This document shows, in pieces, positions 26,920 to 47,598 of a DNA stretch of 64,000 nt; the stretch's first letter is position 1, and every line of letters begins with the position of its first letter. The DNA is from Terriglobia bacterium (GTDB lineage: Bacteria > Acidobacteriota > Terriglobia > Acidiferrales > UBA7541): assembly GCA_020072785.1 (NCBI GenBank), contig JAIQGG010000007.1, forward strand, positions 1 to 64,000, given 5' to 3'. Position numbers and translations under genes: made by a program. The notes beneath the pieces were generated by a model, which had not been told where the DNA came from, made no database searches, and saw nothing but the letters and a program-made list of their open reading frames with translations.

Positions 26920-26951
26920 GATGGGTAATATTCCGGTCAACGGGAAGATAA

Positions 26952-31412: not shown

Positions 31413-32036
31413 TCAGTACTTGCGCAGCACGCTCACCACGCGGCCCTGAATCTTCACGTCGCTGGCGGGCACGACGATGGGGGCCATCTCCGAATTCGCC
31501 GGCTGCAGGCGGATCTTCCCCGCACCCTCGCGGTAGAAGCGCTTCAGCGTGGCCTCTTCCCCGCCCACCAGCGCCACCACGATATCGCCGGCATTGGCCA
31601 CCTGGGTCTGCTCGCAGACCACGTAATCCCCGTCCAGGATGTGGTCCTCGATCATCGAGTTGCCCTTGACCTGCAGCACAAAGGTGGTGGCCCCGCGCGC
31701 AAAATCCCCCAGGGAAATCGTCTCGCGATCCTCGAGCGCTTCCAGCGGCCGCCCCGCGGCGATGCGCCCGACCAGGGGCAGCTCCTGCACGCGGCGGTCC
31801 AGCACCTGTTCCTTCACCGGCTTCGGCAGTTGCACGATCTCGATTGAGCGGCTCTGGTTGTAGCCGCGGCGGATGAAACCCTTCTTCTCCAGGGTGCTGA
31901 TGTGCTTGTGCACGGTGGCCAGGGAGGTCAGTTTCAGGCCCTTGCCGATCTCCTCGAAACTCGGCGAGTAGCCGTGCCTGGTTTCGAAGGACACCAGAAA
32001 ATCGAGCACTTCCTTCTGCCGCTTGGTCAGAGCCAT
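31413..32036 (-). CDS. lexA: LexA repressor (SOS master regulator)
   Basis: LexA represses SOS genes and cleaves itself when RecA is activated on single-stranded DNA. The 207-residue product from ATG 32036 (AGGAGG upstream) has an N-terminal winged helix (MALTKRQKEVLDFLVSFETR, SLATVHKHISTLEKKGFI), the Ala-Gly cleavage site in GRIAAGRP, the nucleophile in VKGNSMIEDHI and the general-base lysine in GGEEATLKRFY. The frame runs 18 codons further up, but that stretch is Arg-rich and lies beyond the ribosome-binding site. Its promoter carries a candidate LexA operator in the -35/-10 spacer, consistent with autoregulation. Confidence 0.96.
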   Translation of the reverse strand: MALTKRQKEVLDFLVSFETRHGYSPSFEEIGKGLKLTSLATVHKHISTLEKKGFIRRGYNQSRSIEIVQLPKPVKEQVLDRRVQELPLVGRIAAGRPLEALEDRETISLGDFARGATTFVLQVKGNSMIEDHILDGDYVVCEQTQVANAGDIVVALVGGEEATLKRFYREGAGKIRLQPANSEMAPIVVPASDVKIQGRVVSVLRKY

Positions 32037-32101: not shown

Positions 32102-32130
32102 ACTCTAGGCGAACACAAAGCGAACGTCAA
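32102..32130 (-). promoter_or_regulatory. lexA promoter with LexA operator in the spacer
   Basis: On the minus strand TTGACG (32130-32125), exactly 17 nt, TAGAGT (32107-32102). The spacer contains GTTC-GCTTTGT-GTTC (32125-32111), a direct repeat with N7 spacing. A partly overlapping inverted repeat TTCGCCT-N8-AGGCGAA follows. The start near 32095 gives a leader of about 60 nt. Confidence 0.75.
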
Positions 32131-32348
32131 GCAAAGAGTTTGTGCGCCGTTCTTCGCCCGCTTTTTTTCCGCGCGGCTTCCTGTTTTGGACACAACGCCG
32201 CGCCACGCGCCCGGTTGTGCTATTATTTTTGTTTGCGGGCTCCTGGTACTTCGCTCTCGAAGCACCTGCTCGCCGCGAAGCCCGGGCGCCGCAACTCCTC
32301 ACGCCGCATGCGGGGAGACATCAGCAACCAACGGGGTCACGCGTCACC
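32131..32348. other. Divergent region upstream of the oxidoreductase genes
   Basis: Between lexA and the plus-strand oxidoreductase lie the lexA promoter and about 220 bp with a T-run (32162-32168) and TATTATTTTT at 32221, but no convincing -35/-10 pair for the plus strand was found. Confidence 0.4.
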
Positions 32349-34208
32349 ATGTCCACTCTCGCGGAAACACCTCTCACCAAAGGCAAGCGCGAAGTCATCG
32401 AACAGGCGGTCATCCGCTTTGCCGGGGACTCCGGCGACGGCATGCAGATCACCGGCAGCCAGTTCACCAACACCGTCGCGCTGTACGGCAACGACATCGC
32501 CACCTTTCCGGACTACCCCGCGGAGATCCGCGCCCCTGCGGGCACCCTCCCCGGGGTCAGCGGCTACCAGCTGCATTTTTCCTCGAGCGAGGTGTACACG
32601 CCGGGCGATGCCGTGGATGTGCTCATCGCCATGAATCCCGCCGCGCTGAAAATGAACCAGGCCGACCTCAAGCCCAACGGGATCCTCATCGTCAACAGCG
32701 ACGCCTTCAAGGAAGGCGACCTGCGCAAGGCGCAGATGACCAGCAATCCCCTCGAGGATCATTCCCTGGACAAGTACCGCCTCTTCTCCGTAGAAGCCCA
32801 GCGCCTGACGCGCGCCGCGCTGCAGCATCTGGGCATCGACGCCAAGGCCATGGACCGCTGCAAGAACTTCTTCGCCCTGGGCATGTGCTATTGGCTTTAC
32901 AACCGCTCCATGGATCCGACCTTCCGCTGGATCGACGACAAGTTCAGCAAGAAGCCGCTGATCGCGGAAGCCAACAAGCTGGCCCTCAAGGCCGGCTACA
33001 GCTACTGCGAAGCCACCGAAGCCTTCCAGGTCAGCTACGAAATTCCTCCGGCCAAGCTGGAGAAGGGCTTCTACCGCAGCCTGAGCGGCAACCAGGCCCT
33101 GGCCCTGGGTTTCGTCACCGCCGCGCAAAAATCCGGCCTAACGCTTTTCCTGGGCTCCTACCCGATCACTCCGGCCTCGGACATCCTGCACGAGCTTTCG
33201 CAATACAAGAATTTCGGGGTGATGACGTTCCAGGCCGAAGACGAAATCGCGGCCATGACTTCGACCATCGGGGCCTCTTACGCCGGCGCGCTGGCCCTGA
33301 CCACGACTTCCGGCCCGGGCATGGCCCTCAAGACCGAAGCGATGGGGCTCGCCGTGATGACCGAGCTGCCCATGGTGATCGTGGACGTGCAGCGTGGCGG
33401 CCCTTCCACGGGCCTGCCGACCAAAACCGAGCAGGCCGACCTGTTGCAGGCGCTCTTCGGACGCAACTCCGAGGCGCCCATTCCGGTTCTGGCGGCTTCC
33501 ACTCCGGCCGACTGCTTCTGGGTCGCCGTGGAAGCGTGCCGCATCGCCCTCAAGTACATGGTGCCGGTGATTGTGCTCACCGACGGCTACCTGGCTAACG
33601 GCTCGGAGCCCTGGCGCATCCCGGAGCTCCAGGACATTCCGGCCATCCCGGTGAGCTTCGCCACGAATCCGGAAACGTATCAGCCCTACAAGCGCGACCC
33701 GCAAACCCTGGCGCGCCCCTGGGCCGTGCCGGGCACGCCCGGCCTGGAACACCGCATCGGGGGCCTGGAGAAAAAAGACGGCAGCGGCAACATCAACTAC
33801 GAGCCGCTCAACCACGAGAACATGGTGCGCATCCGCGCGGCCAAAGTCGCGGGCATCGTCCAGGACATTCCCGACGCCGTTCCCGCGGGGGATCCCGACG
33901 GCGACCTGCTGATCATCGGCTGGGGCTCGACGTGCGGCTCGATCACCGCGGCGCTCATGCCGCAGCGCGCCAAGGGCCGGCGCATCGGCCACGTGCATCT
34001 GCGGCACCTGAACCCGCTGCCGAAGAACCTCGGGGATGTGATGAAGCGCTACAAGAAAGTGCTCGTTCCGGAGCTGAACATGGGCCAACTGCTGTGGGTC
34101 TTGCGCGCCAAGTATCTGGTGGACGCCATCGGCATGAACAAGATCCAGGGCCGCCCGTTCAAGCAGAACGAGCTGGAAGTGAAGATCGAAGAAGTAATCG
34201 GCGCCTAA
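32349..34208 (+). CDS. 2-oxoacid:ferredoxin oxidoreductase, fused gamma-alpha subunit (KorA type)
   Basis: With the next gene this forms a thiamine-diphosphate, iron-sulfur enzyme that decarboxylates a 2-oxoacid (most likely 2-oxoglutarate) to the acyl-CoA and reduces ferredoxin, or runs in reverse. The 619-residue product has an N-terminal gamma domain (AVIRFAGDSGDGMQITGSQF, residues about 15-190), then the alpha part (GSYPITPASDILHELS, FQAEDEIAAMTSTIGASYAG, TTSGPGMALKTEAMGLAV) and a C-terminal domain II (IIGWGSTCGSI, HLRHLNPLPKNLGDV). The gamma-alpha order matches the fused KorA type. ATG 32349 is the natural start. The hairpin at 34219-34284 separates it from the beta gene. Confidence 0.93.
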   Translation: MSTLAETPLTKGKREVIEQAVIRFAGDSGDGMQITGSQFTNTVALYGNDIATFPDYPAEIRAPAGTLPGVSGYQLHFSSSEVYTPGDAVDVLIAMNPAALKMNQADLKPNGILIVNSDAFKEGDLRKAQMTSNPLEDHSLDKYRLFSVEAQRLTRAALQHLGIDAKAMDRCKNFFALGMCYWLYNRSMDPTFRWIDDKFSKKPLIAEANKLALKAGYSYCEATEAFQVSYEIPPAKLEKGFYRSLSGNQALALGFVTAAQKSGLTLFLGSYPITPASDILHELSQYKNFGVMTFQAEDEIAAMTSTIGASYAGALALTTTSGPGMALKTEAMGLAVMTELPMVIVDVQRGGPSTGLPTKTEQADLLQALFGRNSEAPIPVLAASTPADCFWVAVEACRIALKYMVPVIVLTDGYLANGSEPWRIPELQDIPAIPVSFATNPETYQPYKRDPQTLARPWAVPGTPGLEHRIGGLEKKDGSGNINYEPLNHENMVRIRAAKVAGIVQDIPDAVPAGDPDGDLLIIGWGSTCGSITAALMPQRAKGRRIGHVHLRHLNPLPKNLGDVMKRYKKVLVPELNMGQLLWVLRAKYLVDAIGMNKIQGRPFKQNELEVKIEEVIGA

Positions 34209-34218
34209 CAACAGTTTC

Positions 34219-34284
34219 GCCATTCCGAGCCGCGTCAGGGGCGGGGCAAACTCCGCGAGGAATCGCGCCGGGCTCCGGAATGGC
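34219..34284 (+). repeat. Long inverted repeat between the two oxidoreductase genes
   Basis: Arms GCCATTCCG...AGCC and GGCT...CGGAATGGC pair across about 66 nt, with the internal segment CGCGAGGAATCGCG. The arm and internal words (CATTCCGAG, CGAGGAAT) echo the dispersed repeat at 15.7 kb and 56.8 kb. There is no T-run, so it is an intra-operon RNA structure or repeat rather than a terminator. Confidence 0.6.
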
Positions 34285-34318
34285 AGCAGCACACGGAACG
34301 AATCAGGGAGACTCGATC

Positions 34319-35347
34319 ATGACCACGGCCGCTCTACCGCATCTCACGAAAAAAGATTTTCAGACCGACCAGGAAGTCCGCTGGTGCCCCGGCTGCGGCG
34401 ACTACGCCATTCTTTCCGCCGTGCAGTCCGTCTTCCCGGAGCTGGGCATTCCCCGGGAGAAGTTCGTGGTGGTCAGCGGCATCGGTTGCTCCAGCCGCTT
34501 CCCCTACTACATGAACACCTACGGCTTCCATTCCATTCACGGCCGCGCCCCGGCCGTGGCCACGGGCATCAAGGCCGTGCGCCCGGATCTGGACGTGTGG
34601 GTGGCCACCGGTGACGGCGATGCCCTGGCCATCGGCGGCAATCACACCATTCACATGCTGCGCCGCAACGTGGGCATCAAGGTCCTGCTCTTCAACAACC
34701 GCATTTACGGCCTGACCAAGGGCCAATATTCGCCGACCTCGGAATACCACAAGATCACCAAGTCCACGCCTTACGGCTCGCCCGACCGGCCCTTCAATCC
34801 GATTTCGCTGGCCATCGGCTCGGAAGCCACGTTCGTGGCGCGGTCCGTGGACGTTTTCCAGGCGCACCTGAAGGAGACCCTGAAGCATGCCGCGGTGCAT
34901 CGCGGCTCGGCGTTCATCGAGATCCTGCAGAACTGCAACATTTTCAACAACGGCGCCTGGGAAGGCATCACCGAGAAGGACGCGCGCAGCGAGCACGTCA
35001 TCCAGCTCGAGCACGGCAAGCCGCTCATCTTCGGCAAGAACCGCGACAAGGGCATCCGCCGACTGCCCGACGGGGACATCGAAGTCGTGCAACTGGGCGA
35101 CAAGTACACGGAGAAGGACCTCATCGTCCACGACGCCCATCACCACCGCGCGTCCTACGCCTTCCTGCTCTCGCACATGGAGCACCGCCCGGGCTTCCCC
35201 ACGCCCATCGGCGTGCTGCGCGCCTGGGACGACCTGCCGCGCTACGAAGACGTGATGAACGACCAGATCAAGGAAGTCATCGCCAAGAAGGGCCGCGGCG
35301 ATCTGGGCAAGCTCTTCCGCGCCGGGGACACCTGGGAAGTCAAGTAG
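34319..35347 (+). CDS. 2-oxoacid:ferredoxin oxidoreductase beta subunit (KorB type)
   Basis: The 342-residue beta subunit carries thiamine diphosphate and the electron-transfer cluster. Visible motifs are WCPGCGDYAILSAVQ (cluster cysteines), SGIGCSSRFPYYMNTYGFHS, the ThDP loop ATGDGDALAIGGNHTIHMLR...LLFNNRIYGLTKGQYSPTS, and ILQNCNIFNNGAW (further cysteine). ATG 34319 follows CAGGGAG. It is 110 bp downstream of the alpha gene, with a clear terminator after the stop. No ferredoxin gene is adjacent. Confidence 0.93.
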   Translation: MTTAALPHLTKKDFQTDQEVRWCPGCGDYAILSAVQSVFPELGIPREKFVVVSGIGCSSRFPYYMNTYGFHSIHGRAPAVATGIKAVRPDLDVWVATGDGDALAIGGNHTIHMLRRNVGIKVLLFNNRIYGLTKGQYSPTSEYHKITKSTPYGSPDRPFNPISLAIGSEATFVARSVDVFQAHLKETLKHAAVHRGSAFIEILQNCNIFNNGAWEGITEKDARSEHVIQLEHGKPLIFGKNRDKGIRRLPDGDIEVVQLGDKYTEKDLIVHDAHHHRASYAFLLSHMEHRPGFPTPIGVLRAWDDLPRYEDVMNDQIKEVIAKKGRGDLGKLFRAGDTWEVK

Positions 35348-35394
35348 GGCAGTCCGTATAGCGCCGGGCTTCAGCCCGGCATCCGAAAACACTT

Positions 35395-35438
35395 CGGGCG
35401 CCGCGACCGCAAAGGTTTTGGCGCCCGTCTTATTTCTT
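35395..35438 (+). terminator. Terminator of the oxidoreductase operon
   Basis: Arms CGGGCGCC / GGCGCCCG with a 17-nt loop followed by TCTTATTTCTT. A smaller GCCGGGC / GCCCGGC hairpin lies just upstream (35372-35390). The same arms are used by the terminator at 36662-36704. Confidence 0.85.
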
Positions 35439-35524
35439 GCCTGTGAAAGCGGGCCTGCTTGCCTTGAACCTGCCGAAGAGGTTCTCCCGCTGGACTCCAA
35501 TCTCCGCGGATGCGGCGCCGCGCC

Positions 35525-36547
35525 TCAGTTTCTCTCTCCCAGCCCATGCATCTTGCGGCATAGCCGGCAATACGTCGGCTGCTCCGTGTTGTCTACACTA
35601 TGATGCACGGGCTTCACCGATTGCAGGTAGGTGAAGATCAGCGACAGGTCCTCGTCGGTCATTCCCCGGAAGACATGCCATGGCATGACGGGAGCCAGCT
35701 CACGCACGCCGCCGACCGTCCCGGTTCGAATTGTCTGGATAAACATTTCCCTTGTGTAATAGGAAATTCCCGCCGGATCGGAGGTGATGTTGGCACTGGC
35801 CACACGGCCCCACGGCCCCTCGAGGATGAAGCCTCCGCCAAATTCCAGGCCGGGAATCGGCTGACCGTGCTCATCCTGCGGCGTGTGGCATCCGATGCAG
35901 CTCGCCATCTGCGTTTGATACCTTCCGCGGCTGAGCACCCCGGCGTTGGGTCCCGGTGCGGAGACGGGCTGCAGCACCGGCTGCGGCACATTGCGGATCA
36001 GATATTTCACCGGGAAGATGATCTCCGATTTCGGCAGAGGGTTGCGCACAGGCGGCAAGGAGCGGAGATAGACGATCACCGATGCCAGGTCTTCATCCGA
36101 CATCTCGCGGAAGCGCTCGTAGGGCATTAGCGGAAAGAGGGCCCGGCCGTCATGGCCGACGCCTTCGCGGATGGCGCGCGCCAATTGATCATCGCTCCAG
36201 GTGCCCGCGCCGGTTTCCGGATCGGGGGTTAGGTTCGGCGCGACCAAGCGTCCCGGCAAGCCTTTGAGCGGAAATAACGTTCCCGCACCCTTCATCTCCT
36301 CGATCACCGGCGCGCCACGTTTGCTCCAGTCGCGCGGCGAGTGGCAGTGCATGCACGCGGCAACATGCTCCACGAAATACGCGCCGCGCTGCAGCCGCTC
36401 CGGCGTGGCTTCGAATTTCCGGTTCGTGAGCGGACGTGCTCTCGGCCCGAGAAGGGGCCGCCAGCCAATCGTCGCCGTGATGCCCGCGGCCGCCAGCCCC
36501 AGCGGCACGACTAGCGCATAGGCCGCAATTTTCACCAGCTTGGGCAT
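35525..36547 (-). CDS. Membrane-anchored di-haem cytochrome c
   Basis: A 340-residue exported cytochrome. ATG 36547 (AGGAG upstream) starts an N-terminal transmembrane anchor (VKIAAYALVVPLGLAAAGIT). Haem sites are CMHCH (about residue 61) and CIGCH (about residue 217), each in a cytochrome-c-like domain with downstream motifs (LMPYERFREMSDEDLASVIVYLRSL; MPWHVFRGMTDEDLSLIFTYLQSV). The C-terminus ends YCRLCRKMHG, a CxxC without the following His, so probably not a third haem. Relatives are electron carriers next to dehydrogenases. No partner enzyme is adjacent, so its redox partner is unknown. Confidence 0.88.
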   Translation of the reverse strand: MPKLVKIAAYALVVPLGLAAAGITATIGWRPLLGPRARPLTNRKFEATPERLQRGAYFVEHVAACMHCHSPRDWSKRGAPVIEEMKGAGTLFPLKGLPGRLVAPNLTPDPETGAGTWSDDQLARAIREGVGHDGRALFPLMPYERFREMSDEDLASVIVYLRSLPPVRNPLPKSEIIFPVKYLIRNVPQPVLQPVSAPGPNAGVLSRGRYQTQMASCIGCHTPQDEHGQPIPGLEFGGGFILEGPWGRVASANITSDPAGISYYTREMFIQTIRTGTVGGVRELAPVMPWHVFRGMTDEDLSLIFTYLQSVKPVHHSVDNTEQPTYCRLCRKMHGLGERN

Positions 36548-36661
36548 GGATTCTCCTAGGAAAAATAGTTTCTTCTTCCCAACTGCCGGACAGTTTCCAC
36601 GATTTGCAGACCGCAAGATACCACGGCCCTTCGCGAATGCGAGTTTTCTCCCGCCCGGCAT

Positions 36662-36704
36662 CAAAAAAATACGGGCGCCTCGACCTCTTACGTCTCGGCG
36701 CCCG
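36662..36704 (-). terminator. Terminator after the M23 peptidase
   Basis: On the minus strand arms CGGGCGCC / GGCGCCCG (36704-36697 and 36679-36672) with a 17-nt loop, followed by TATTTTTTTG. It ends transcription from the M23 gene before the cytochrome gene. Confidence 0.85.
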
Positions 36705-36776
36705 GACAATTCTTCTTTCTGCTTCTCGCCTGTATTCGGGCGGACGTTCAGCCCGCCCTTTCCTGTCTGCCTTTTC

Positions 36777-38072
36777 TCACTTGCCGTGCGCCGGGACCGC
36801 TGCCAACTCACCCTGCACCACGCTGGCCTGCAGCAGCGCCGGATTTTTCAGCAAGGGCAGCCATTTGTCGCGGACGGTCTCAAATTCGGGCCGGTTGCGC
36901 TTGGAGACGGGATCGGCGGGCGGCAGGCCGAGGTGCTCGAAGTTCTTGTACTTGCCGCGCTGCAGAAAGCGGAAATCGAGATGCGGCCCGGTGGAAAGCC
37001 CGGTGCTGCCGACCAGCCCGATGACCTTGCCGATCTCCACGTGCTCGCCCGTGCGCACGAACATCCTGGAGAGGTGCAGGTACATGGTTTCGTAGCCGTT
37101 GGCGTGCGTAATCTGCACCAGGTTGCCCTCCCCGCCCTTGCGCCCGGCAAAGAGCACCCGCCCGCTACCGATGGTCTGCACCGGCGTGCCCACCGGCGCG
37201 CCGTAGTCAATGCCCAGATGCGGGCGGCGGATCTTCAGGATGGGATGAAAGCGCGCGTAGCTGAAATGCGAGGTGATGCGCGCGCCGAACTTCAGCGGCG
37301 AGCGCAAAAAGGCCTTCTGTAGCGAATTGCCGTTGGCCGCGTAATACGCGGGCCGGCCGCTGGAGTCGTGGAAGAGCAATGCCTGGTAGGGATGCCCGCC
37401 GTTGTCGTATTCCGCGACGAAAATCTTTCCGTAGCCCGCGGTCTGCCCCCCGGCGTATTTCTTCTTCTCCAGCACCACGCGGAAGGTGTCGCCGCGCCGC
37501 GGGTCGGTGTAGAAATCGAGGTCGTACCCGAAGATCTCCGCCAGACGCATGGCCAGGTCCGCCGTTTCGCCCGCGCGCTCCACGGCGTTGAACAGTGAAT
37601 CGTCCACCTGCCCGCTCACCACCACGATCTCCGTCTTTGCGGCAATCGTCCGCACTTCCGCGGAAAAGCTGCCGTCCGCCGGCGCGGGCACGATGCGCAG
37701 CAGCCGCTCCGGGTCGATGCGGTATTCGATGGTGCGCAGCCCGCCATCCACCGAACGCCCCACGGTGATCATGTTTCCCGCGCGCATCTGCCGCAGATTG
37801 AAGGCCCGCTGAGCCGCCGCGGAAGCGCCGGCCGCCTCTTCGGCGCTCAGGCCGAACTTCTCCAGCGCGGCCATGAAATTCGCGCCCGCGGGAACTTTCT
37901 TCCCCGTCGGCAGCACGCTCTGCTGCCGGGCCCACGCGGCCTCTTTCTGCGTCAGTTGCACTTCGTGCTGAAAGGCCTCCGTGGCCACCAGCCGCTGGCG
38001 AAATACGTAACCCAGCACACCCATCCCGGCGCTGCACAGCACCAGGAGCACCACGCCAAAACGACGATTCAC
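36777..38072 (-). CDS. M23 (LytM-type) peptidoglycan endopeptidase
   Basis: A 431-residue membrane-anchored wall enzyme. GTG 38072 (GGGGGAAAG upstream) gives MNRRFGVVLLVLCSAGMGVL, a signal anchor. An OapA/LysM-like N-terminal part follows (AALEKFGLSAEEAAGAS, RAGNMITVGRSVDGGLRTIE), then the M23 domain at about residues 285-385: RRPHLGIDYGAPVGTPV supplies the His and Asp ligands, and GLSTGPHLDFRFLQRG the last motif. In that motif the usual HxH reads HLD, so the second His is Asp; similar variants exist in the family but may alter activity. It precedes no gene in its transcript; a transpeptidase lies 250 bp upstream on the same strand. Confidence 0.9.
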   Translation of the reverse strand: MNRRFGVVLLVLCSAGMGVLGYVFRQRLVATEAFQHEVQLTQKEAAWARQQSVLPTGKKVPAGANFMAALEKFGLSAEEAAGASAAAQRAFNLRQMRAGNMITVGRSVDGGLRTIEYRIDPERLLRIVPAPADGSFSAEVRTIAAKTEIVVVSGQVDDSLFNAVERAGETADLAMRLAEIFGYDLDFYTDPRRGDTFRVVLEKKKYAGGQTAGYGKIFVAEYDNGGHPYQALLFHDSSGRPAYYAANGNSLQKAFLRSPLKFGARITSHFSYARFHPILKIRRPHLGIDYGAPVGTPVQTIGSGRVLFAGRKGGEGNLVQITHANGYETMYLHLSRMFVRTGEHVEIGKVIGLVGSTGLSTGPHLDFRFLQRGKYKNFEHLGLPPADPVSKRNRPEFETVRDKWLPLLKNPALLQASVVQGELAAVPAHGK

Positions 38073-38322
38073 GCTTTCCCCCAAGTTACTCGCTGCCCCT
38101 GCAGCTTTTGGCCCCACCGCGCCGCGCGCCCGGTCCCCGATGCTTCCTGGGAGAGAACACCCGGACAAAGCGCTTCTCAGCTTACCCTGCACCCCTCTTT
38201 TGTCTCAAGCAGGAACCGGAGTCAAAGGGAGAAACGGGCGGAGGTGTGGAGAACGATACGGCAAGGAGCAGGCGAGATAGGATGCGCATAGCCCCGCCGG
38301 GAACGAAGCAAGGAACAGAGAG

Positions 38323-39441
38323 TCAGTTGCCGGACGCGCCGATCCACTCGTTGCGGTGCGGCACCTCGGCAAAATAGTTCTGCTCGCGCAGCTTGCGGTA
38401 GATCCGCCCGGCAACCACCGCGGCCGTGGGGCCCATGACGCGGTGGCTGCTGCCGCGCAGGAGAACCACCAGCGCAATTTTCGGCCGCGCTTCGTCGGCG
38501 TAGGATACAAACCAGCCCACCCGCGATTTCTGGTCGTTGCACGTGCCGGTCTTGCCCAGCGCCAGTTCGTCGCCGCCCTGGTCGAAACTGGCCTTGCCCG
38601 TGCCGTAGAGCACCGCCGCGAGCATGCCTTCGCGGATCGGCGGCAGCAGCGGGGCGATATCCAGCTGGCGCTTCACGCGGGGCGCGAAATTCGCGCGCTC
38701 TTCTTCCGTGCGCGGGTACTGCAGATAGTAGAGAGTTCCGCCGTTGGCCACCGCGGAGGCCAGCGAGGCGAGCTGCAGCGGCGTCATCTGGATGCCTTCG
38801 CCGAAGCTGGACATGCGCGCCACCCCGCCGTGCGCCGGCGCTATCGCCGGGAGAAGGCCGGGATGCTCCTCCGGCATGTTGTAGCCGGAGAGCTCGCCGA
38901 GCCCCAGGAGCTTGGCGTAGCGGGACACGGTTGCGAAGCCCATGCGCCGGCCCAGCTCTTCAAAAAATTGGTTATTGGAATGGGCCATGGCCTCGGTGAG
39001 ATTCATGTACTTGCGCCGCCCGACCTTGAGCATGGTGTCGCGGGTGATGACGTCCTCTTCGAGCGCGGCGACGGCGATCGTGGGCTTGATGGTCGAGCAC
39101 GGAATCGTGCCGTTGGAGAAGGCCAACTTCTGGTTGACGATGCTCAGGATGCGCCCGGTATTGGGATCCACGGCCACCACCGTGCCGTTGTAGCGGCCCA
39201 GGGCCTCGACGGCTGCCTGGCGGATGACCGGGTCGTCGTAAGCCGCAATGTCTTCACTGGTGGAATCGGCAAAGGTGGGCACGCCGCGGAACCGCGACGC
39301 CGCATGGCCCTTGCTCCGCCGCGATGCTCGCACGCCCGCCTTGCCGCCGGCCGCCGCTGGGGCGGCGACTGCCGGAACAGCACAGGCCCACGCCAACAAT
39401 ATGGCCAACACGTTTCGCGATATCCTGGCTGCCCGCTTCAT
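38323..39441 (-). CDS. Small penicillin-binding transpeptidase
   Basis: A 372-residue secreted serine DD-transpeptidase-fold protein. ATG 39441 starts a signal peptide (NVLAILLAWACAVPAVAAPA) after GTGGGG. The three active-site motifs are complete: STIK (SxxK, in TIPCSTIKPTIAV), SNN (SxN, in AMAHSNNQFFEE) and KTG (in ALGKTGTCND). No glycosyltransferase or PBP dimerisation domain is present, so it resembles a stand-alone transpeptidase domain related to class B PBPs or class D beta-lactamases. It probably works in peptidoglycan maturation together with the M23 enzyme downstream; a beta-lactamase role cannot be excluded. Confidence 0.88.
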   Translation of the reverse strand: MKRAARISRNVLAILLAWACAVPAVAAPAAAGGKAGVRASRRSKGHAASRFRGVPTFADSTSEDIAAYDDPVIRQAAVEALGRYNGTVVAVDPNTGRILSIVNQKLAFSNGTIPCSTIKPTIAVAALEEDVITRDTMLKVGRRKYMNLTEAMAHSNNQFFEELGRRMGFATVSRYAKLLGLGELSGYNMPEEHPGLLPAIAPAHGGVARMSSFGEGIQMTPLQLASLASAVANGGTLYYLQYPRTEEERANFAPRVKRQLDIAPLLPPIREGMLAAVLYGTGKASFDQGGDELALGKTGTCNDQKSRVGWFVSYADEARPKIALVVLLRGSSHRVMGPTAAVVAGRIYRKLREQNYFAEVPHRNEWIGASGN

Positions 39442-39674
39442 AGTCCCCACTTCCACGCCCCCGAAATGGCCCCTGCCGCATGGCATGCCAGCGGCCGAGG
39501 CAACAGCGATTGTAGGGAAGCGCACGGGGATAGGCAATAGGCCAAGCACTCTAGTACGTGGATATGTGTTGTGAAATCAACTCTGTCCAAAGGGGCAGGT
39601 CTGGAGGGGAAGAAGAAAATTGGATGGTTGAAAAGTTCAAAAGTTGAAAAGGCTGAAAGCATGGAGCGAGAACG

Positions 39675-39717
39675 GAAAAAAGGTCTGGGGCGCCGTCGCG
39701 CGGCTTGCCCCCAGACC
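39675..39717 (-). terminator. Terminator of recA (may act in both directions)
   Basis: Arms GGTCTGGGGGC / GCCCCAGACC with a 15-nt loop; on the minus strand TTTTTT follows, and on the plus strand TTTT. It lies 45 bp after the recA stop. Confidence 0.85.
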
Positions 39718-39761
39718 TTTTCCGGCCTTTCCAGTCTTTAACGCTTCAACGCTTCAACTTC

Positions 39762-40883
39762 TTAGCGCGTAGGCCCGTTCACTGGCCTGCCCTTCGCCGC
39801 AGAAGCTGCCGCGCCCATAGCCCGGTCATTCGGCGCCGGCGCCGCGGCCGGAGTTGCCGCGGGAGCCGAGGCGCCGTTCACAGTTCCCGGCGTGGGGATT
39901 TCCATCTTCTTGCGCAGCGCAGCTTCCAGCTTGGCGCGAATGTCTGGATTTTCCTTGAGGAAAATGCGCGCATTCTCACGGCCCTGGCCCATGCGCTCAC
40001 TGCCGTAGCTGAGCCACGTGCCGCTCTTTTCGACGAGGCCTTTATCCACGCCCAGGTCCAGCAGGTCGCCTTCGCGCGAGATGCCTTCTCCGTAGAGGAT
40101 GTCGAATTCGGCCTCGCGGAACGGCGCGGCGACCTTGTTCTTCACCACCTTGCCGCGGGTGCGCGACCCGACGACTTTGTCCCCTTCCTTGATGGCCTGA
40201 ATGCGGCGGATATCCAGGCGGATGGAGGCGTAGAACTTCAGCGCGCGGCCGCCCGTGGTGGTTTCCGGATTGCCGAACATGACGCCGATCTTTTCGCGGA
40301 TCTGGTTGATGAAGATCAGGCAGGTCCTGGACTTGGAAACGATGCCGGTGAGCTTGCGCAGGGCCTGGGACATCAGGCGGGCCTGCAAGCCCATCTGCGG
40401 ATCGCCCATTTCGCCTTCCAGCTCGGCCTTGGGCACCAGGGCGGCCACGGAGTCCACGACGACGACGTCCACCCCGCCCGAGCGGATCAGCGTTTCCGCA
40501 ATTTCCAGCGCCTGCTCACCGTTATCCGGCTGCGACACCAAGAGGTTGTCCACGTCCACGCCCAGCTTGCGCGCATAGACGGGGTCCAGCGCGTGCTCGG
40601 CGTCGATGAAGGCCGCCTGCCCGCCCAGCTTCTGCGCTTCGGCGATGACGTGCAGCGTCATGGTGGTCTTACCGCCCGATTCCGGGCCGTAAACCTCGAT
40701 GACCCGCCCGCGCGGAAAGCCGCCCACGCCCAGCGCGGCGTCCAGCGAGAGGCATCCGGTGGGGATGACGCTCACGGGCACCAGTACATCGCGGCTGCCA
40801 AGGCGCATGATCGAGCCCTTGCCGAAGGACTTTTCGATCTGCGCGATCGCCGCGTCCAGCATTTTCGATTTCTCGTCTGCCAT
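39762..40883 (-). CDS. recA: Recombinase RecA
   Basis: RecA forms filaments on single-stranded DNA, catalyses strand exchange and triggers LexA self-cleavage. The 373-residue product from ATG 40883 (GAGGTG upstream) shows the Walker [29 protein letters not shown] (Walker B and L1), [20 protein letters not shown] (L2) and [21 protein letters not shown]. The C-terminal 35 residues are an Ala/Pro-rich tail. The candidate LexA operator is about 450 bp upstream, beyond a small ORF, so recA may be read as the second gene of an SOS-induced transcript. Confidence 0.98.
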
Positions 40884-41100
40884 TTCACACCTCGGAAGAG
40901 GAAAGTAGGAATCGTGTAACCGGGACCTTGGGGGCCGCAGGCCGGGGCGCCGCGCCGGGAACAACGCGAGACCCTTTGGGGACGTGGCTAGGCGTGCAGC
41001 TTACCACTCGGTTCACCATCGCGCCATCCCTTTCTGGCTCTGCAGCCGCGTCTTGCTCTGCCCTGCTGCTGCAAATCGCTGCTAGTTAGAGATACCCATA

Positions 41101-41292
41101 CTACCGCTGACAGCCATGCTGCGTCTCGTGGTCGCGCAGCCGGGCCTGCGCCGCACGCTCCCGCTGCTCCCACGCGGCCCGCTCCGGCGACGTCAGTTGC
41201 CGCAAGCGCGACAAATTCCGCCCGCGCGTCCGGGTTTCCACCAGCTCTTCTTCCAGTCTCTGCCGTTCACCGCAAAGGAGCAAACCACGCAT
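41101..41292 (-). CDS. 63-residue ORF between the LexA box and recA
   Basis: From ATG 41292 the product begins MRGLLLCGERQRLEEELVET and continues as one charged, probably coiled-coil helix (RNLSRLRQLTSPERAAWEQR, ending HETQHGCQR). No family was recognised, and its ribosome-binding site is weak. Its position is telling: it starts 44 bp downstream of a LexA-type operator/promoter (41336-41350) and 217 bp upstream of recA on the same strand, so it could be a small SOS protein or a translated leader. Confidence 0.5.
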   Translation of the reverse strand: MRGLLLCGERQRLEEELVETRTRGRNLSRLRQLTSPERAAWEQRERAAQARLRDHETQHGCQR

Positions 41293-41335
41293 GGGGCACC
41301 TGCCAGCAACATCGGGGAGAAGGTATCCCAAAGGC

Positions 41336-41350
41336 GAACAAAAGGCAAAC
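41336..41350 (-). promoter_or_regulatory. Candidate LexA operator upstream of recA
   Basis: On the minus strand GTTT-GCCTTTT-GTTC, same spacing as the lexA box, followed by GCCT as in the other two sites. TTTGCC (-35-like) and ATACCT (-10-like) flank it at 17 bp, so the box overlaps a promoter. Confidence 0.6.
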
Positions 41351-41538
41351 ACTATTTTCGCCTAATATTCGCCATCGCCGGGCCCCTTCCCCTGCAGGCG
41401 CCTCTTCCCGCCCTAGTCTTCCTTTGAGGGCACCTTGCAAAAACTATACGTTGAGATCCTTTCCGACAGGAGTCGGAATCTTCGATCGGTCAACCTAATC
41501 GGGTGACAGGATGACAGCGTCGAGGTACTGGGAAACAC

Positions 41539-43365
41539 CTACAATTTCTTGCGCCAGATTTCCTGGCGGGTTTCGAGGCGCGTGGCGGCGATCCAACGGC
41601 CGTCGGGGGAGACGCGCGGGTGCAGGAGGTTGGCGGCGGCGGCGCTGAGTTTTTTGGGCGTGCCGCCGGCACGCGGGATGGCGAAGAGCTGCATGCGGCC
41701 ATCCTGGAGGGCGCTAAAGAGGATGGTCTGGGCGTCGGGAGTCCAGTCCAGGCCGCTGTAGGTGTCGCTTTTGTAGGTGACGAGGCGCTGCGCTTGGCTG
41801 CCATCAGCGGCGAGAATCCAGATGGCGCGCTCGCCGGGGGCGGATTCGTCCTCGACGGCGATCTCCTCGCCCTTGGGCGACCACATGGGCCACTCGGCAC
41901 TGTGCACCTCCGCCGGGAGAGGCAGCTTCGCGCTGCTGAGGACGCTGCCGGTTTCCGGGTTGATGGTGGTGATCCACAGGCGATAGACGCCGGGCTTGCC
42001 GCCCTTTTCCCACGAGGGAAAGACCAGGCGGCGGCCGTCGGGAGACCAACTGGGGGAGCCCGTCTCCCAGCCGAAATCGGTGAGGCGTATTTCGGGCGCC
42101 TGCGGATCGCCGGCGCGCTTGAGCCAGATGTCGTCGCTGGCGCCGGGGGCGTCGTAGTAGGCCACGGGCTGCGGCGCACGGTGGGAGTGGAAGGCGATCC
42201 ACTTCCCGTCCGGCGACCACTCCGGAGGAAAATCCTCGTGATTACCGGCGATGACCACGCTGCGCGGCGAAGTGGCGTGCGCTTCGGCGTCCACGCTGAC
42301 CGCGCCGGCGTCCAGATCGAGGGCCCAGTCCGCGCGGCGCCATTGCCCGAAGAAAAAGCCGATCTGGCGGGAGTCGCGGCTCCAGGCGGGGAGCTCGGCA
42401 CCGGGGAGCACTTCATGGGCCGGGCCTCCGGCAATGGGGAGGGCCACGATGGAATCGTGAATGGTGTTCTGCGCCCAGTACAGATTGCCCGCGGCCTCGA
42501 CGGGAGCGGTCTTGTCCCCGTCCGAAGAGACCAGTTTTTTCAACCGTTTGCTGCTGAGATTGAATTCGTAGATGTCCAGCCAGCGCTCGGCGTCCGGATT
42601 CTGGCGCGCGGCGGCCTCCGGCGCCTTCTCGCCAACGAGCGAGAGATAGAGCCGCCCGCCATCGGGCGAAAGGCTGAGCGGGCTCAGCCGGGGGTCCGCA
42701 TCCAGCCCCTGCGCGAGCGGCACGACCTTGCCCATACCGACAGGCACCTGCACCAGCGAAGTCGAGCCGCCAGCCTGGCGCACCATGGCGTAGAGGCTCT
42801 GCGCATCGGGCGCAAAGACCGCGCCGGTGATCACGCCGGGGACGGCGATGTGTTTTCTTTCCTTCCAACCGCCGACCCACAGCCCGGCATCGGCGACGTT
42901 GGAGCGAAAATAGGCCGAAGTCTTTCCGTCCGCAGAGCAAACGGGAATGGCATCGGGCTTGAACATGACGCGGTCGAGGCCCTTGTTTTCGATCATGGCG
43001 TACCAGCCCTCGAGAGCGCCGTGCTGGCCCATGCGCAGCAGTTCCTCGCCGCAGAAGAAGGCCTGGGAGACGCTGGCCAGCGGGCCGCGCAGCCGCGCGG
43101 CGTCCTCCTTCTTGGTGACCAGGGAGATGAGGTCCACGCCCCCGGCGCGGGAAAGAAGCGCCCACTTCCCGTCGCTGGAGATGGCGGCGCCCGGCGCCAG
43201 ATCTTCAAACCAGCGATGGCCCGCGCGCGAATAGATTTTCTCGGCGCCGGCGGGCGCGCCTTGCTGCGCCAGCGCTACGCCCGCGAGGCCCAGCGCGGCA
43301 GCAGCCAGGAGACAACCAGAGAAACGGCGCGCGCGAAAAAGTGCGGGGAGCATGGAAAGCGTCAT
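41539..43365 (-). CDS. Secreted PD40/TolB-like beta-propeller protein
   Basis: A 608-residue exported propeller. The signal peptide (FSGCLLAAAALGLAGVALAQ) is followed by repeated PD40-type blades: PPEWSPDGKWIAFHSH, PSWSPDGRRLVFPSW, PMWSPKGEEIAVED, LDWTPDAQTILFSA and PRVSPDGRWIAATRL. The C-terminus ends without an S9 peptidase domain. A binding or scaffold role is likely; no enzymatic motif is seen. Its start codon overlaps the stop of the hydroxyacyl-CoA dehydrogenase gene (ATGA), so the two are translationally coupled despite unrelated functions. Confidence 0.82.
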   Translation of the reverse strand: MTLSMLPALFRARRFSGCLLAAAALGLAGVALAQQGAPAGAEKIYSRAGHRWFEDLAPGAAISSDGKWALLSRAGGVDLISLVTKKEDAARLRGPLASVSQAFFCGEELLRMGQHGALEGWYAMIENKGLDRVMFKPDAIPVCSADGKTSAYFRSNVADAGLWVGGWKERKHIAVPGVITGAVFAPDAQSLYAMVRQAGGSTSLVQVPVGMGKVVPLAQGLDADPRLSPLSLSPDGGRLYLSLVGEKAPEAAARQNPDAERWLDIYEFNLSSKRLKKLVSSDGDKTAPVEAAGNLYWAQNTIHDSIVALPIAGGPAHEVLPGAELPAWSRDSRQIGFFFGQWRRADWALDLDAGAVSVDAEAHATSPRSVVIAGNHEDFPPEWSPDGKWIAFHSHRAPQPVAYYDAPGASDDIWLKRAGDPQAPEIRLTDFGWETGSPSWSPDGRRLVFPSWEKGGKPGVYRLWITTINPETGSVLSSAKLPLPAEVHSAEWPMWSPKGEEIAVEDESAPGERAIWILAADGSQAQRLVTYKSDTYSGLDWTPDAQTILFSALQDGRMQLFAIPRAGGTPKKLSAAAANLLHPRVSPDGRWIAATRLETRQEIWRKKL

Positions 43366-44234
43366 GGCTTCTCCTGGGAATAGCTGTAAAAGCCGCGGCC
43401 GGATTTACGGCCCAGCCAGCCGGCGGCGACATATTTTTTCAGCAGCGGGCAGGCGCGGTATTTGGGATCGCCTAGGCCGTCCTGCAGGACGTGCAGGATA
43501 TCCACGCAGACGTCGAGGCCGATAAAATCGGCCAGCTCCAGCGGACCCATGGGATGGTTCATGCCCATCTTCATCACGGCGTCCACGGCTTCGACGGTGG
43601 CCACGCCTTCCAGGACGGCGTAGGCGGCTTCGTTGATGAGCGGCATGAGCACGCGGTTGGAGACGAAGCCGGGCGCGTCGTTGACGGCAACCGGCTTCTT
43701 GCCGAGCCTTTCGGCGAGGCGCAGGGTGGTGTCGAAGGTGGCGTCCGAGGTCTGCAGCGCGCGGATAACTTCGACGAGCACCATCACCGGCACGGGGTTC
43801 ATGAAGTGCATGCCCACGAAGCGGTCGGGGCGCCCGGTGAGCGCGGCGAGGGTGGTGATGGCGATGGAGGAGGTGTTGCTGGCGAGGATGGCGTCCGGGC
43901 GGAGGATCCCGTCGGCCTCCTGCAGGACGGCGCGCTTGATCTCCAGCTTTTCCGGGACGGCTTCGACCACGAAATCGGCGGCGGCGATGGCCTGCATGTC
44001 GGTGACCGGCTGGAGGCGGGCGAGGACGGCGGCGCGGTCGGCTTCGGCGAGCTTGCCCTTCTTGATCTCGCGGTCGAGATTCTTGCCGATGGTTTCCAGG
44101 CCGCGGTCGAGGAAGCGGGGCTCGACGTCGCGCAGGATCACGGAGAAGCCCGCGCGGGCAAAGACATGCGCGATGCCGTTGCCCATGGTGCCTGCGCCCA
44201 GCACGGCAACGGTTTTGATTGCGTCCACGGTCAT
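43362..44234 (-). CDS. 3-hydroxybutyryl-CoA dehydrogenase
   Basis: This NAD(P)-dependent enzyme interconverts 3-hydroxyacyl-CoA and 3-oxoacyl-CoA. The 290-residue product from ATG 44234 (GGAGG upstream) has a Rossmann motif VLGAGTMGNGIAHVFA, SNTSSIAITTLA, the catalytic His in GMHFMNPVPVM with Glu in LVEVIR, and the C-terminal domain NRVLMPLINEAAYAVLEG, GPLELADFIGLD, GRGFYSY. It is the short PaaH/Hbd form without a hydratase domain. It lies in one minus-strand unit with a thiolase 0.8 kb upstream, so together they can carry out acetoacetyl-CoA/3-hydroxybutyryl-CoA chemistry (beta-oxidation or storage polymer). Confidence 0.93.
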   Translation of the reverse strand: MTVDAIKTVAVLGAGTMGNGIAHVFARAGFSVILRDVEPRFLDRGLETIGKNLDREIKKGKLAEADRAAVLARLQPVTDMQAIAAADFVVEAVPEKLEIKRAVLQEADGILRPDAILASNTSSIAITTLAALTGRPDRFVGMHFMNPVPVMVLVEVIRALQTSDATFDTTLRLAERLGKKPVAVNDAPGFVSNRVLMPLINEAAYAVLEGVATVEAVDAVMKMGMNHPMGPLELADFIGLDVCVDILHVLQDGLGDPKYRACPLLKKYVAAGWLGRKSGRGFYSYSQEKP

Positions 44235-44297
44235 AGCAATCCTCCGAACTACGCTTTCCATTTGGATGGAGGGCAGTTTACTACAGGCGGGCACGCC

Positions 44298-44939
44298 TCA
44301 CCGAGGCGGCGTGCCTTCGCGGACTTCGCGGAGGATTTCGCGGGCGGCAGGTTCGTCGGCGGGCATGACGAAGAGGCGCAGCGTGCCGGGCTCGGCGCCT
44401 TCACGGCGGACGCCGATGCGATTTTCGCGCAGGCAATCTTCGAGGATCCGGGCGAGGCCGACGTCCTCGCCGCTCCAAATCTCCGCGGTGGCTTGTTGGG
44501 GGTTCCACCCAGCCGCGCGGCGTTCTTCTATTTTTTCGGCCTCTTCTGCTTCCCTTGTTTCTTGTTCCTCTTCCTCCCCCGGTTCCCTGAAGGCGAAAGG
44601 CGAAGACTGATAGATGGGCTCGAGCAGTTCGCGCGCGCGTTGCGCATCGGAGCGGAAGACGCGCACCTCGTATTTCGGCCGCGGCATGCCTAGCTCAAAA
44701 ACAAAATGGTCCTGGGTGGCCTTCACGTGGTGCGGGATGCCGGCTTCGCGCAGAGCGGCAATAGCCTGGCTAACGGCCACGGGATCGCCGCTTTTCCAGA
44801 CCATGTCGATGCGCTCCTTGCGCTCTTTTTCATGGAGCGGGCGGCCGCGTAGGGCCTCGGGCACCAGCTCGACGCCGCACATCGTACAGCGGCCGTAGCC
44901 GGCGGCGTATTCGGCATCGCATAGCGGGCAGTAGTTCAT
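44298..44939 (-). CDS. Zinc-ribbon protein with DUF2007-like domains
   Basis: The 213-residue product starts MNYCPLCDAEYAAGYGRCTM: two CxxC pairs (CPLC, CTMC) make a zinc ribbon. Two DUF2007-like signal-transducing domains follow (WKSGDPVAVSQAIAALREAG; SGEDVGLARILEDCLRENRI ending RLFVMPADEPAAREIL), joined by a Glu-rich linker (EEEEQETREAEEAEKIEERR). The role is unknown; DUF2007 resembles ACT/PII-like sensory folds. It sits between thiolase (85 bp upstream) and the dehydrogenase (63 bp downstream), so it may sense or regulate this pathway. That is inference from position only. Confidence 0.7.
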   Translation of the reverse strand: MNYCPLCDAEYAAGYGRCTMCGVELVPEALRGRPLHEKERKERIDMVWKSGDPVAVSQAIAALREAGIPHHVKATQDHFVFELGMPRPKYEVRVFRSDAQRARELLEPIYQSSPFAFREPGEEEEQETREAEEAEKIEERRAAGWNPQQATAEIWSGEDVGLARILEDCLRENRIGVRREGAEPGTLRLFVMPADEPAAREILREVREGTPPR

Positions 44940-45024
44940 AGTTTGCTTCGTTCCTCGCCCCTGGGAAGGATTCAAGAGAAAAGCCGCGGGGCTGTCGCCC
45001 CGTGCTACAGCGCTACCCGACAGT

Positions 45025-46209
45025 TCAAAAGCGCTCGATGGCCAGGGCCACGGCATTGCCGCCGCCGAGGCAGAGAGCGGCGACGCCGCGCTGGAGGTTG
45101 CGGCGCTGCAGCTCGTAGAGCAGGGTGACGAGGATGCGCGCGCCGGAAGCGCCGATGGGGTGGCCGAGGGCCACCGCTCCGCCGTTGACGTTGACCTTTG
45201 CGGAATTCAGCTTGAGTTGGCGGGTGACGGCGAGAGCGGCGACGGAGAAGGCCTCATTCAGCTCGAAGAGGTCCACGTCCTTGTCGCGGTTCCAACCGGT
45301 CTTGGCGAGGAGTTTTTCCACGGCGTCCACCGGAGCCATCATGACCCACTTGGGCTCGAGGCCGCTGACGGCCTGGGCGACGATGCGGGCGATGGGCTGT
45401 TTGCCGAGCTGCGCGGCCTTGCGCTCGCTGGTGACCACCAGGGCGGCGGCGCCGTCGTTGGTGCTGGGGGCGTTGCCGGCGGTGACCGTGCCGTCTTTTT
45501 TGAAAGCGGGCTTGAGCCGGGCGAGGGCTTCCACGGAAGTGTCCTCGCGGGGCGATTCGTCGTGCTGGACGACGAGGGGAGCGCCCTTCTTCTGGGGGAT
45601 CTCGATGGGCAGGATCTGCGAGGTGAAGAGGCCCTCTTTGCGGGCGCGCACGGCCTTCTGGTGGCTTTCGAAAGCGAAGCGGTCCTGCTCCTCGCGGGTG
45701 ATGGAATATTTTTCGGCGACGAGTTCGCCGGTCATGCCCATGTGGAAGTTTTCGTAAGCGTCCCACAGGCCGTCGTTGATCATGGAATCGATGATCTTGC
45801 CGTCACCAAGACGGTAGCCGGTGCGCGCCTGGGGAAGCAAGTAGGGGCAGTTGGACATGGACTCCATGCCGCCGGCGACGAGGAGTTCGGATTCCCCGGT
45901 CTGCACGGCCTGCGCGGCGAGGGCTACGGCCTTGAGGCCGGAGCCGCAGACCTTATTAATGGTCATGGCGGCGACGCGGGGATCGCAGCCGCCTTTGAGG
46001 GCGGCCTGGCGCGCGGGATTCTGGCCGAGGCCGGCCTGCACGACGTTGCCGAGAATGGCTTCGTCCACTAGCTTCGCGTCAATGCCGGCGCGGCGGATAG
46101 CTTCGGCGACAACCTTGCCGCCGAGCTCGGGGGCGGAAAAGCCGGCGAGGCCGCCCTGGAATTTACCGATGGCCGTGCGGACGGCGGAAAGAATAACGGG
46201 ATTTTCCAT
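45025..46209 (-). CDS. Acetyl-CoA C-acetyltransferase (thiolase)
   Basis: This enzyme condenses two acetyl-CoA to acetoacetyl-CoA or runs the thiolytic reverse. The 394-residue product starts at ATG 46209 (GGAGG upstream; [20 protein letters not shown]). The acylated cysteine is in [16 protein letters not shown], the catalytic His in [13 protein letters not shown] and the second Cys in [10 protein letters not shown]. Length and motifs match the biosynthetic/degradative tetrameric thiolases. It heads a minus-strand unit with the zinc-ribbon protein and hydroxybutyryl-CoA dehydrogenase. Confidence 0.95.
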
Positions 46210-46318
46210 GGTGAGCCTCCGGGGAGCGACGCACTCGATTATACAGCGATGCAAAGGAGGAGAAGACGCCGGAAAGAATTTTGGGGGCGGTGGGAAGACC
46301 GCCCCCCAGAGAACGGGT

Positions 46319-46855
46319 TTAGTTTGCGGCAGCAGCTTCGGCTGAGCCCATCTGGCCTTCGTCGGCGCTGGGGCCATAGAGCGCGGGCACCGGAATATTC
46401 AGCAGGCGGAAGTAGACGGTGAGCTGGGCGCGATGATGGATTAGATGGTTCATCACCATGCCGCGGAGAACGGCGACCTTGGGCAAGGTGAAGATCGTCT
46501 TTCCACCAGCGAGAAGAGTCCAAGGTTTCATCATGTCCTGATCGCTGGCAGAAGCGAGGGCGGCGCGCCCCTCGGCGCATTGTTTATCGAAGACAGCGAG
46601 AAGCTCTTTGCGAGAATCCGTTTTGGGAGGCACGTAAGCAGGACCGCCCACCGGGGCATAATCGAGCTGCTCCGTATTGAGGGTGACGGTGGCCCACCCG
46701 GGCATGGTCGCGATGTGGCCGGCGAGCCAGCCGAGGGTGCCGGACTTATCGTGGGGCTTCCAATTCCATCTGTCGTCAGGGACGCGCTCGAGGGTTTTGC
46801 GCGTGTTCTGCATTTCCTGGTCGTATTCACCGAGCATCATTTGGCCGATAGTCAT
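46319..46855 (-). CDS. DinB-superfamily protein
   Basis: The 178-residue product has the DinB/YfiT four-helix pattern: [40 protein letters not shown] (first His ligand), and the C-terminal [20 protein letters not shown] with the paired His of the metal site. The family comprises putative metal-dependent thiol transferases, named after the DNA-damage-inducible dinB of Bacillus subtilis. A candidate LexA operator lies 115 bp upstream in the correct orientation, with a copy of the dispersed hairpin between them. It lies 109 bp upstream of thiolase on the same strand. Confidence 0.85.
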
Positions 46856-46906
46856 GACTGCTGCTCCTTTCGATGCGGATGGCTGCTAAGGCTTCCTCTA
46901 TCTCTG

Positions 46907-46923
46907 TGACCGCAGAGCGGTCA
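46907..46923. repeat. Dispersed GACCGC/GCGGTC hairpin
   Basis: Perfect 7-bp arms TGACCGC / GCGGTCA around AGA, preceded by TCTCTG and followed by AAC. It lies 52 bp upstream of the DinB-fold gene start, inside its probable leader. Confidence 0.75.
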
Positions 46924-46969
46924 ACGGAAAACCGCGGGGAAACGGCGCGACAAACAGTAGCATCAAGGC

Positions 46970-46984
46970 GAACAAAAAGCAAAT
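46970..46984 (-). promoter_or_regulatory. Candidate LexA operator between two DinB-fold genes
   Basis: On the minus strand ATTT-GCTTTTT-GTTC followed by GCCT, matching the lexA and recA sites at the second half-site and flank and relaxed in the first half-site. TTTGCT and GCTACT flank it as weak -35 and -10 elements. It could serve the minus-strand gene (46855) and perhaps also the plus-strand gene (47050). Confidence 0.5.
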
Positions 46985-47049: not shown

Positions 47050-47598
47050 ATGGCACACGAATTCACGACCTCGTATTTGAAGGATGCACTCGACCTGTTC
47101 CGCTATTACAAGCGGCTGGGCGAGCGGGCGATGGAGCAGTGCCCGGAGGAAGGGCTGTTTGCCGCGCTGGACGCGGAGTCCAATTCCATCGCCATCACGG
47201 TGAAGCACCTGGCGGGGAACATGCGCTCGCGGTGGACGGATTTTCTGACCACCGACGGCGAGAAGCCCGACCGCAACCGGGACACGGAGTTTGAAGCGCC
47301 GCCGAAGACGCGCGCGGAGCTGCTGGCGCTGTGGGAGGCGGGTTGGAAGCAAGTGTTTGCGGCGCTGGAGCCGCTGACGGATGCCGATCTGACGCGGCGG
47401 GTGCTGATCCGCACCGAGCCGCATTCCGTGCTGCAGGCGGTCCAGCGGCAAATCGCGCATTACGCGTACCACGTGGGACAGATCGTGTACCTGGGGAAGC
47501 ACTTCGCGGGCGGGGGCTGGACGGCACTGACCGTGCCGCGCAGGAAATCGGCGGAGTTCAACGCGAACGTCGCCTCCGGGAAGACTTCGCAGCGCTAA
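47050..47598 (+). CDS. DinB-superfamily protein (DUF1572-like)
   Basis: A 182-residue member of the same four-helix superfamily, but of the DUF1572 branch: YLKDALDLFRYYKRLGERAM, SIAITVKHLAGNMRSRWTDF (first His), EFEAPPKTRAELLALWEAGW, and VLQAVQRQIAHYAYHVGQIV with the C-terminal His pair. ATG 47050 fits the family start; no strong ribosome-binding site is visible. It is divergent from the other DinB-fold gene across a 194-bp region with the LexA-type motif. Substrate unknown. Confidence 0.85.
   Translation: MAHEFTTSYLKDALDLFRYYKRLGERAMEQCPEEGLFAALDAESNSIAITVKHLAGNMRSRWTDFLTTDGEKPDRNRDTEFEAPPKTRAELLALWEAGWKQVFAALEPLTDADLTRRVLIRTEPHSVLQAVQRQIAHYAYHVGQIVYLGKHFAGGGWTALTVPRRKSAEFNANVASGKTSQR

Follow-up and report, generated by a model that had tools for sequence, protein, structure and literature searches.

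The window analysed here is a 64,000-nucleotide stretch on contig 7 of a genome of 11 contigs (3.73 Mb, 98.9% complete), with a coding fraction of 0.84; its host is an acidobacterium of the class Terriglobia, a soil group. The window contains lexA, recA and a divergent pair of DinB-superfamily genes, and the promoter regions of these genes carry direct-repeat sites. The three sites noted previously, together with a fourth described below, are in all likelihood operators of the LexA repressor encoded in the same window, and would belong to an acidobacterial SOS regulon. The genes and sites are as follows.

31413 to 32036, minus strand: lexA, LexA repressor of 207 amino acids with helix-turn-helix and S24 peptidase domains (TIGR00498, Pfam)
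32107 to 32125, minus strand: candidate LexA box of lexA, GTTCGCTTTGTGTTCGCCT (pattern and matrix; box kept at lexA in genus and class)
39762 to 40883, minus strand: recA (Pfam RecA, 466 bits; start aligned in relatives)
41104 to 41292, minus strand: 63-codon open reading frame (ORF) between the box pair and recA (genus-specific, under purifying selection, predicted helical hairpin)
41332 to 41350, minus strand: candidate LexA box directed towards the small ORF and recA, GTTTGCCTTTTGTTCGCCT (pattern, matrix, relatives)
41356 to 41374, plus strand: second, divergent candidate LexA box at recA, TTTCGCCTAATATTCGCCA (matrix, genome pattern, relatives)
46322 to 46855, minus strand: DinB_2/DinB-superfamily gene with a YfiT-like four-helix fold (Pfam DinB_2 3e-14, DinB 2e-10)
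46966 to 46984, minus strand: candidate LexA box between the divergent DinB_2 and DUF1572 genes, ATTTGCTTTTTGTTCGCCT (pattern, matrix, relatives)
47050 to 47598, plus strand: DUF1572 gene of the DinB superfamily, transcribed away from DinB_2 (Pfam DUF1572 4e-70)

The three minus-strand sites are found where the original prediction had placed them and fit the pattern RTTYGCYTTKTGTTCGCCT exactly. With up to 3 mismatches no further sites occur in the window, the expected number is 0.17, and none of 100 shuffled windows reaches 3. This low expectation is partly circular because the pattern was drawn from the sites themselves, and an independent matrix was therefore built to score the window blind. 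The matrix has 19 columns and rests on 81 lexA promoters, taken from other Acidobacteriota and from close lexA relatives; the corresponding LexA proteins are at most 72% identical to that of the window. The noted sites take ranks 2 to 4 in the window, with 23.4 bits for the lexA site, 23.0 for the DinB_2/DUF1572 site and 20.8 for the minus-strand site at recA, while the best scores of 15 random windows of equal dinucleotide make-up lie between 11.4 and 17.6 bits. The top match (26.6 bits) is the fourth site, at 41356-41374 on the plus strand, which had been overlooked. A further match at 26940 (17.9 bits) is close to the random maximum and was left uncounted.

In the whole genome, the pattern widened from the sites of this genome matches 10 sites with at most one mismatch, against 0 for a control consisting of the same pattern reversed, of the same composition. 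None of these ten sites was called within a gene. At 2 mismatches the counts are 20 and 5; the two-mismatch sites, mostly inside genes as by chance and about twice the control number, were rejected.

The boxes overlap -35/-10-like elements and carry T-tracts, so that they might be viewed as eye-picked promoter or composition likenesses (TTGC or TTGAC -35 elements in T-rich spacers). This explanation is scarcely credible and, in terms of sequence statistics, already refuted, as dinucleotide shuffles and random windows fail to reach the observed scores, the reversed pattern stays empty at the stringency given above, and the partner box at recA is conserved despite pointing away from that gene.

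Half-site, spacing and the lexA promoter

The original prediction had described the core of the sites as GTTC-N7-GTTC, which needs correction. Among the three noted sites the literal form occurs only at lexA (the other two start with GTTT and ATTT), and it is present in 2 of 116 lexA promoters, as compared with 87 of 116 for TTCG-N7-TTCG. In an unbiased count of all gapped 4-mer pairs in these promoters, which lie outside the genus, TTCG-N7-TTCG ranks first, whereas the best pair in 20 shuffles of the promoters reaches only 6 of them. The loose pattern GTTY-N7-GTTC, with 171 genome matches against 117 in the control, was dropped as too weak. In boxes chosen by their TT[CT]GC skeleton, the bases preceding each TTCGC carry only 0.05 and 0.52 bits, and the YTT following the first half-site is strong. 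The conserved unit is TTCGC (TTCGC-N6-TTCGC) with the first base of each half-site free, and the box is best written as DTTCGCYTTNNNTTCGCC, a direct repeat with a period of 11 bp.

The LexA protein of the window scores 197 bits against TIGR00498 (cut-off 110.95) and consists of LexA_DNA_bind (PF01726) and Peptidase_S24 (PF00717) domains. The cleavage pair A94-G95 and the catalytic residues S127 and K165 are present, and they are invariant in 32 relatives. With both domains and the full catalytic set, the predicted protein is a canonical LexA.

The repressor gene itself carries an operator-type box. As had been claimed, this box fills a 17-nucleotide spacer: the 17 bases between TTGACG (32130-32125) and TAGAGT (32107-32102) are the box sequence. 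The box is found upstream of almost all sampled lexA genes of the same genus and of most in the class. The lexA promoter also contains a third half-site.

32131 to 32135, minus strand: third half-site TTTGC, 11 bp upstream of the lexA box and directly upstream of the -35-like TTGACG

The third-half-site sequence CTTTGCTTGACGTTCGC is found in L015 and L016, and comparable triple half-sites are present in L029, L038, L043 and L091. At recA and at the DinB_2 gene, the first half-site, read by eye, can double as a weak -35 element (TTGCCT and TTGCTT, respectively).

Paired boxes at recA and the small ORF

The two boxes ahead of recA form an inverted pair, facing apart, with 5 bp between them, and two LexA dimers could bind there side by side. 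The pair is kept in nearly all same-genus loci checked (24-26 bp end to end; distance to recA about 435-570 bp). In the five other genera of the family that were sampled a single box is located ~130 bp before recA, whereas among the other recA promoters of the class that were examined only five are boxed (L319, L320, L328, L332 and L335); membership of recA in the regulon is therefore lineage-specific within the class.

The small ORF is separated from recA by 217 bp of non-coding sequence. Of the 61 genomes searched, 22 have a relative of it; all 22 belong to the same genus and have it in single copy, and about 20 of the copies are intact. The members are ~63-69 codons long and nearly all are preceded by the paired boxes; the distance from the start of the box to the ORF start is 57-60 bp, and the leader TTTCAACAGGTG is conserved in most of them. 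The pooled pN/pS ratio is 0.49 in frame, as against 1.07 and 1.24 for the alternative frames; dN/dS is about 0.16-0.37 in most close pairs. As these ratios point to purifying selection in this frame only, the ORF very probably encodes a protein.

Four residues (Cys7, His55, His59 and Cys61) are the same in all 16 members compared. The AlphaFold2 model is a two-helix hairpin (pLDDT 86.5), a fold that would join the invariant Cys/His ends of the chain; zinc binding by these residues is a guess. The sequence has no significant Pfam match, and a structure search with the model gave no significant relative in the PDB, only generic helical hairpins (best E 0.76). The small gene is the least-known element of the set and is probably under LexA control. 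We give about even chances to the fuller proposal that it encodes a new SOS-induced protein, possibly a Cys/His zinc hairpin acting on RecA, cell division or replication, which, along with a second and inverted LexA box, would have entered the promoter slot of recA in one genus of Acidobacteriota.

A variant of the LexA reading would make the small ORF the main target of the boxes near recA, with recA transcribed from a constitutive promoter of its own in the 217-bp gap. The conserved distance from the box to the ORF start and the non-coding stretch before recA fit such an arrangement, as does the fact that only about 20 of 36 genomes of the genus keep the ORF. However, the other genera of this family have the box directly before recA, while G024 and G017 lack the small ORF and still have a box ahead of recA. 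We thus consider this variant unlikely; from the same two observations it follows that the ancestral target is recA.

Predicted targets in the genome and in relatives

The third noted box had been described as lying upstream of a DinB-fold gene. This is true but incomplete, as the box sits between two divergent genes, 66 bp from the start of the DUF1572 gene. The same divergent DinB_2/DUF1572 layout is seen in L137, and the box is kept 63-109 bp ahead of the orthologous start in five relatives. The possibility that the DinB-fold gene encodes DNA polymerase IV (Pol IV) was ruled out by Pfam, which assigns it to the unrelated DinB_2 superfamily; the actual gene for Pol IV has a box of its own and lies on a different contig.

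The genome-wide target list, drawn from pattern searches and fetched stretches rather than from a full matrix scan, comprises lexA, recA (the pair), DinB_2/DUF1572, mrfA-mrfB, tcmP-DUF5131, dinB-dnaE2 and three minor places. The boxed loci outside the window with identified genes (Pfam/NCBIfam) are:

C2:919207: MrfA-type DEAD helicase gene, followed by an RNase H-like exonuclease gene
C4:64879: TcmP and DUF5131 genes behind the box
C6:62509: dinB (Pol IV) behind the box, then a second DNA polymerase III alpha gene (dnaE2-like)

We take the helicase-exonuclease pair to be the counterpart of MrfA-MrfB of Bacillus subtilis. The replicative dnaE is a separate copy, which scores better than the boxed accessory one. 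The putative operon of Pol IV and DnaE2-like genes (L125:28-4840, minus strand, genome C6) lies behind its LexA box with neither imuA nor imuB.

The excess of sites extends to relatives. The widened pattern matches 4-16 sites in each of 24 same-genus genomes (0-4 for the control), and a strict pattern matches, when summed, 102 sites in the 21 other genomes of the class, against about 20 for the control. Outside the class, the strict pattern stays at about control level in most genomes. In relatives a boxed Rv2578c-type radical SAM gene recurs at four loci, and the other recurrent targets are dnaB, the MrfA helicase and ImuA-like genes. The boxed dnaB, the gene of the replicative helicase, is found in three genera of the order (L134, L136 and L160). 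In L154 (1-3032, minus strand), L146 and L159, the box precedes an unannotated RecA/ImuA-like gene, which is followed by a family-B DNA polymerase gene; such a unit might be an alternative mutagenesis cassette.

The positions of the sites thus strongly support the proposed SOS regulon: the sites recur mostly at repair or SOS-type genes, and they are kept at lexA throughout the class and at recA throughout the family. By family, the targets are lexA, recA, dinB/Pol IV, an accessory dnaE, the MrfA-type helicase with the RNase H-like exonuclease, TcmP and DUF5131. Several observations weigh against this reading. The only candidate gene downstream of the perfect box at C2:1034303 is an ORF of 44 codons, ~115 bp off, which has a strong ribosome site (L127:5130-5270, plus strand), and the site at C1:733980 (1 mismatch) has no clear target. 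The box at C1:600876 (L126:4977-4995, minus strand) corresponds in position to a boxed Rv2578c-type radical SAM gene of the relative L140; this genome has syntenic flanks but lacks the gene, so the site looks like an orphaned operator. Of the repair genes named in the original prediction, dnaE2 is boxed (in the dinB operon), but even with up to 2 mismatches allowed, none of uvrA, ruvC and imuB showed a site in this genome, and no classical imuA-imuB or ruv genes were found with boxes. In addition, LexA binding, repression and induction by damage are carried over from established knowledge of LexA, and the promoter elements were assigned by eye.

The sites at C2:1034303 and C1:733980, which are not at repair genes, could suggest that the motif belongs to another direct-repeat regulator that also controls lexA and recA. 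We regard this as very improbable. The motif is present at lexA itself across the class, a hallmark of autoregulation, and it tracks recA, dinB-dnaE2 and ImuA-like genes; moreover, LexA boxes of Alphaproteobacteria share the 11-bp repeat geometry, and the LexA proteins of that group are the nearest sampled ones in the tree described below.

LexA represses by binding over promoters and is released on RecA-stimulated self-cleavage. In undamaged cells, a LexA dimer would accordingly bind TTCGC-N6-TTCGC, with its 11-bp spacing, over the promoters of lexA, the ORF-recA unit and DinB_2/DUF1572, and block transcription. On DNA damage, RecA filaments would stimulate self-cleavage of LexA at Ala94-Gly95 and these genes would switch on, as would mrfA-mrfB, tcmP-DUF5131 and dinB-dnaE2 at other loci of the genome. 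Such a scheme offers a sequence-based outline of the SOS regulon for a large, mostly uncultured soil group, and it proposes mrfA-mrfB, the DinB_2/DUF1572 pair and the small ORF as concrete damage-response genes under LexA. The sharper motif also allows metagenome-assembled genomes to be scanned for LexA sites without experiments.

Comparison with known LexA systems

A LexA box of an Acidobacterium, linked to the Alphaproteobacteria, has been published (Mazon et al. 2006, Microbiology 152:1109), as cited in PMC3323433 and PMC7739468. The presence of a direct-repeat LexA box outside the Alphaproteobacteria, to which the original prediction had drawn attention, therefore holds but is no surprise. 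New here are the fourth site, the sharper motif, the longer gene list and the small gene before recA. Mazon, Campoy, Erill and Barbe reportedly gave the core in A. capsulatum as GTTC-N7-GTTC, and recA of that species reportedly has no box, which would fit the lineage-specific membership of recA seen here. By these details, the two systems have in common the phylum, the direct repeat and possibly a LexA related to that of the Alphaproteobacteria; they differ in that the outer G is free here, the unit is TTCGC, and recA has two boxes.

The LexA of Balneolaeota recognizes the direct repeat TTACACATATTTTWTACATA, described in PMC7739468 as one of several cases in which the recognition of direct repeats arose independently. 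In both cases the box is a direct repeat rather than a palindrome and the SOS response is controlled by LexA and RecA (here as predicted), but the half-site sequence differs. The ImuA-ImuB-DnaE2 mutasome and its ImuA-less variants in Bacteroidetes and Streptomyces, as outlined by Timinskas and Venclovas (2019, PMC6511836), share with the L125 operon a LexA-type box before a Y-family polymerase gene and a second DnaE gene. The Y-family member of L125 scores as Pol IV/DinB, not as ImuB, and with no ImuA the operon resembles the variants that combine a Y-family polymerase with DnaE2.

For the Alphaproteobacteria, the LexA box is given as GTTC-N7-GTTC in PMC3323433. In the Alphaproteobacterial lexA genes fetched for this study, GTTC recurs with the 11-bp period, in three copies in Sphingomonas, Cereibacter and Methylobacterium, so triple half-sites are present at both sets of lexA genes. 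The assignment of the boxes to the Alphaproteobacterial type is thus correct for the spacing and not for the half-site (TTCGC instead of GTTC): both groups have the same geometry, with a shift of the half-site. They also differ in the recognition helix, SKSGIHRLI in Alphaproteobacteria and SLATVHKHI here. In a maximum likelihood tree of 43 LexA proteins, the Alphaproteobacterial LexAs and a Methylobacter plasmid LexA adjoin those of the Acidobacteriota with support values of 82/85, with long branches nearby. The Methylobacter (gammaproteobacterial) plasmid lexA (L291) lies beside umuDC and has GTTC-N7-GTTC upstream; its product groups with the Alphaproteobacterial LexA. The tree agrees weakly with the idea of lateral lexA transfer put forward by Mazon et al. 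(2006). The common 11-bp repeat, together with a shifted half-site and a different helix, makes such a transfer testable by specificity swaps.

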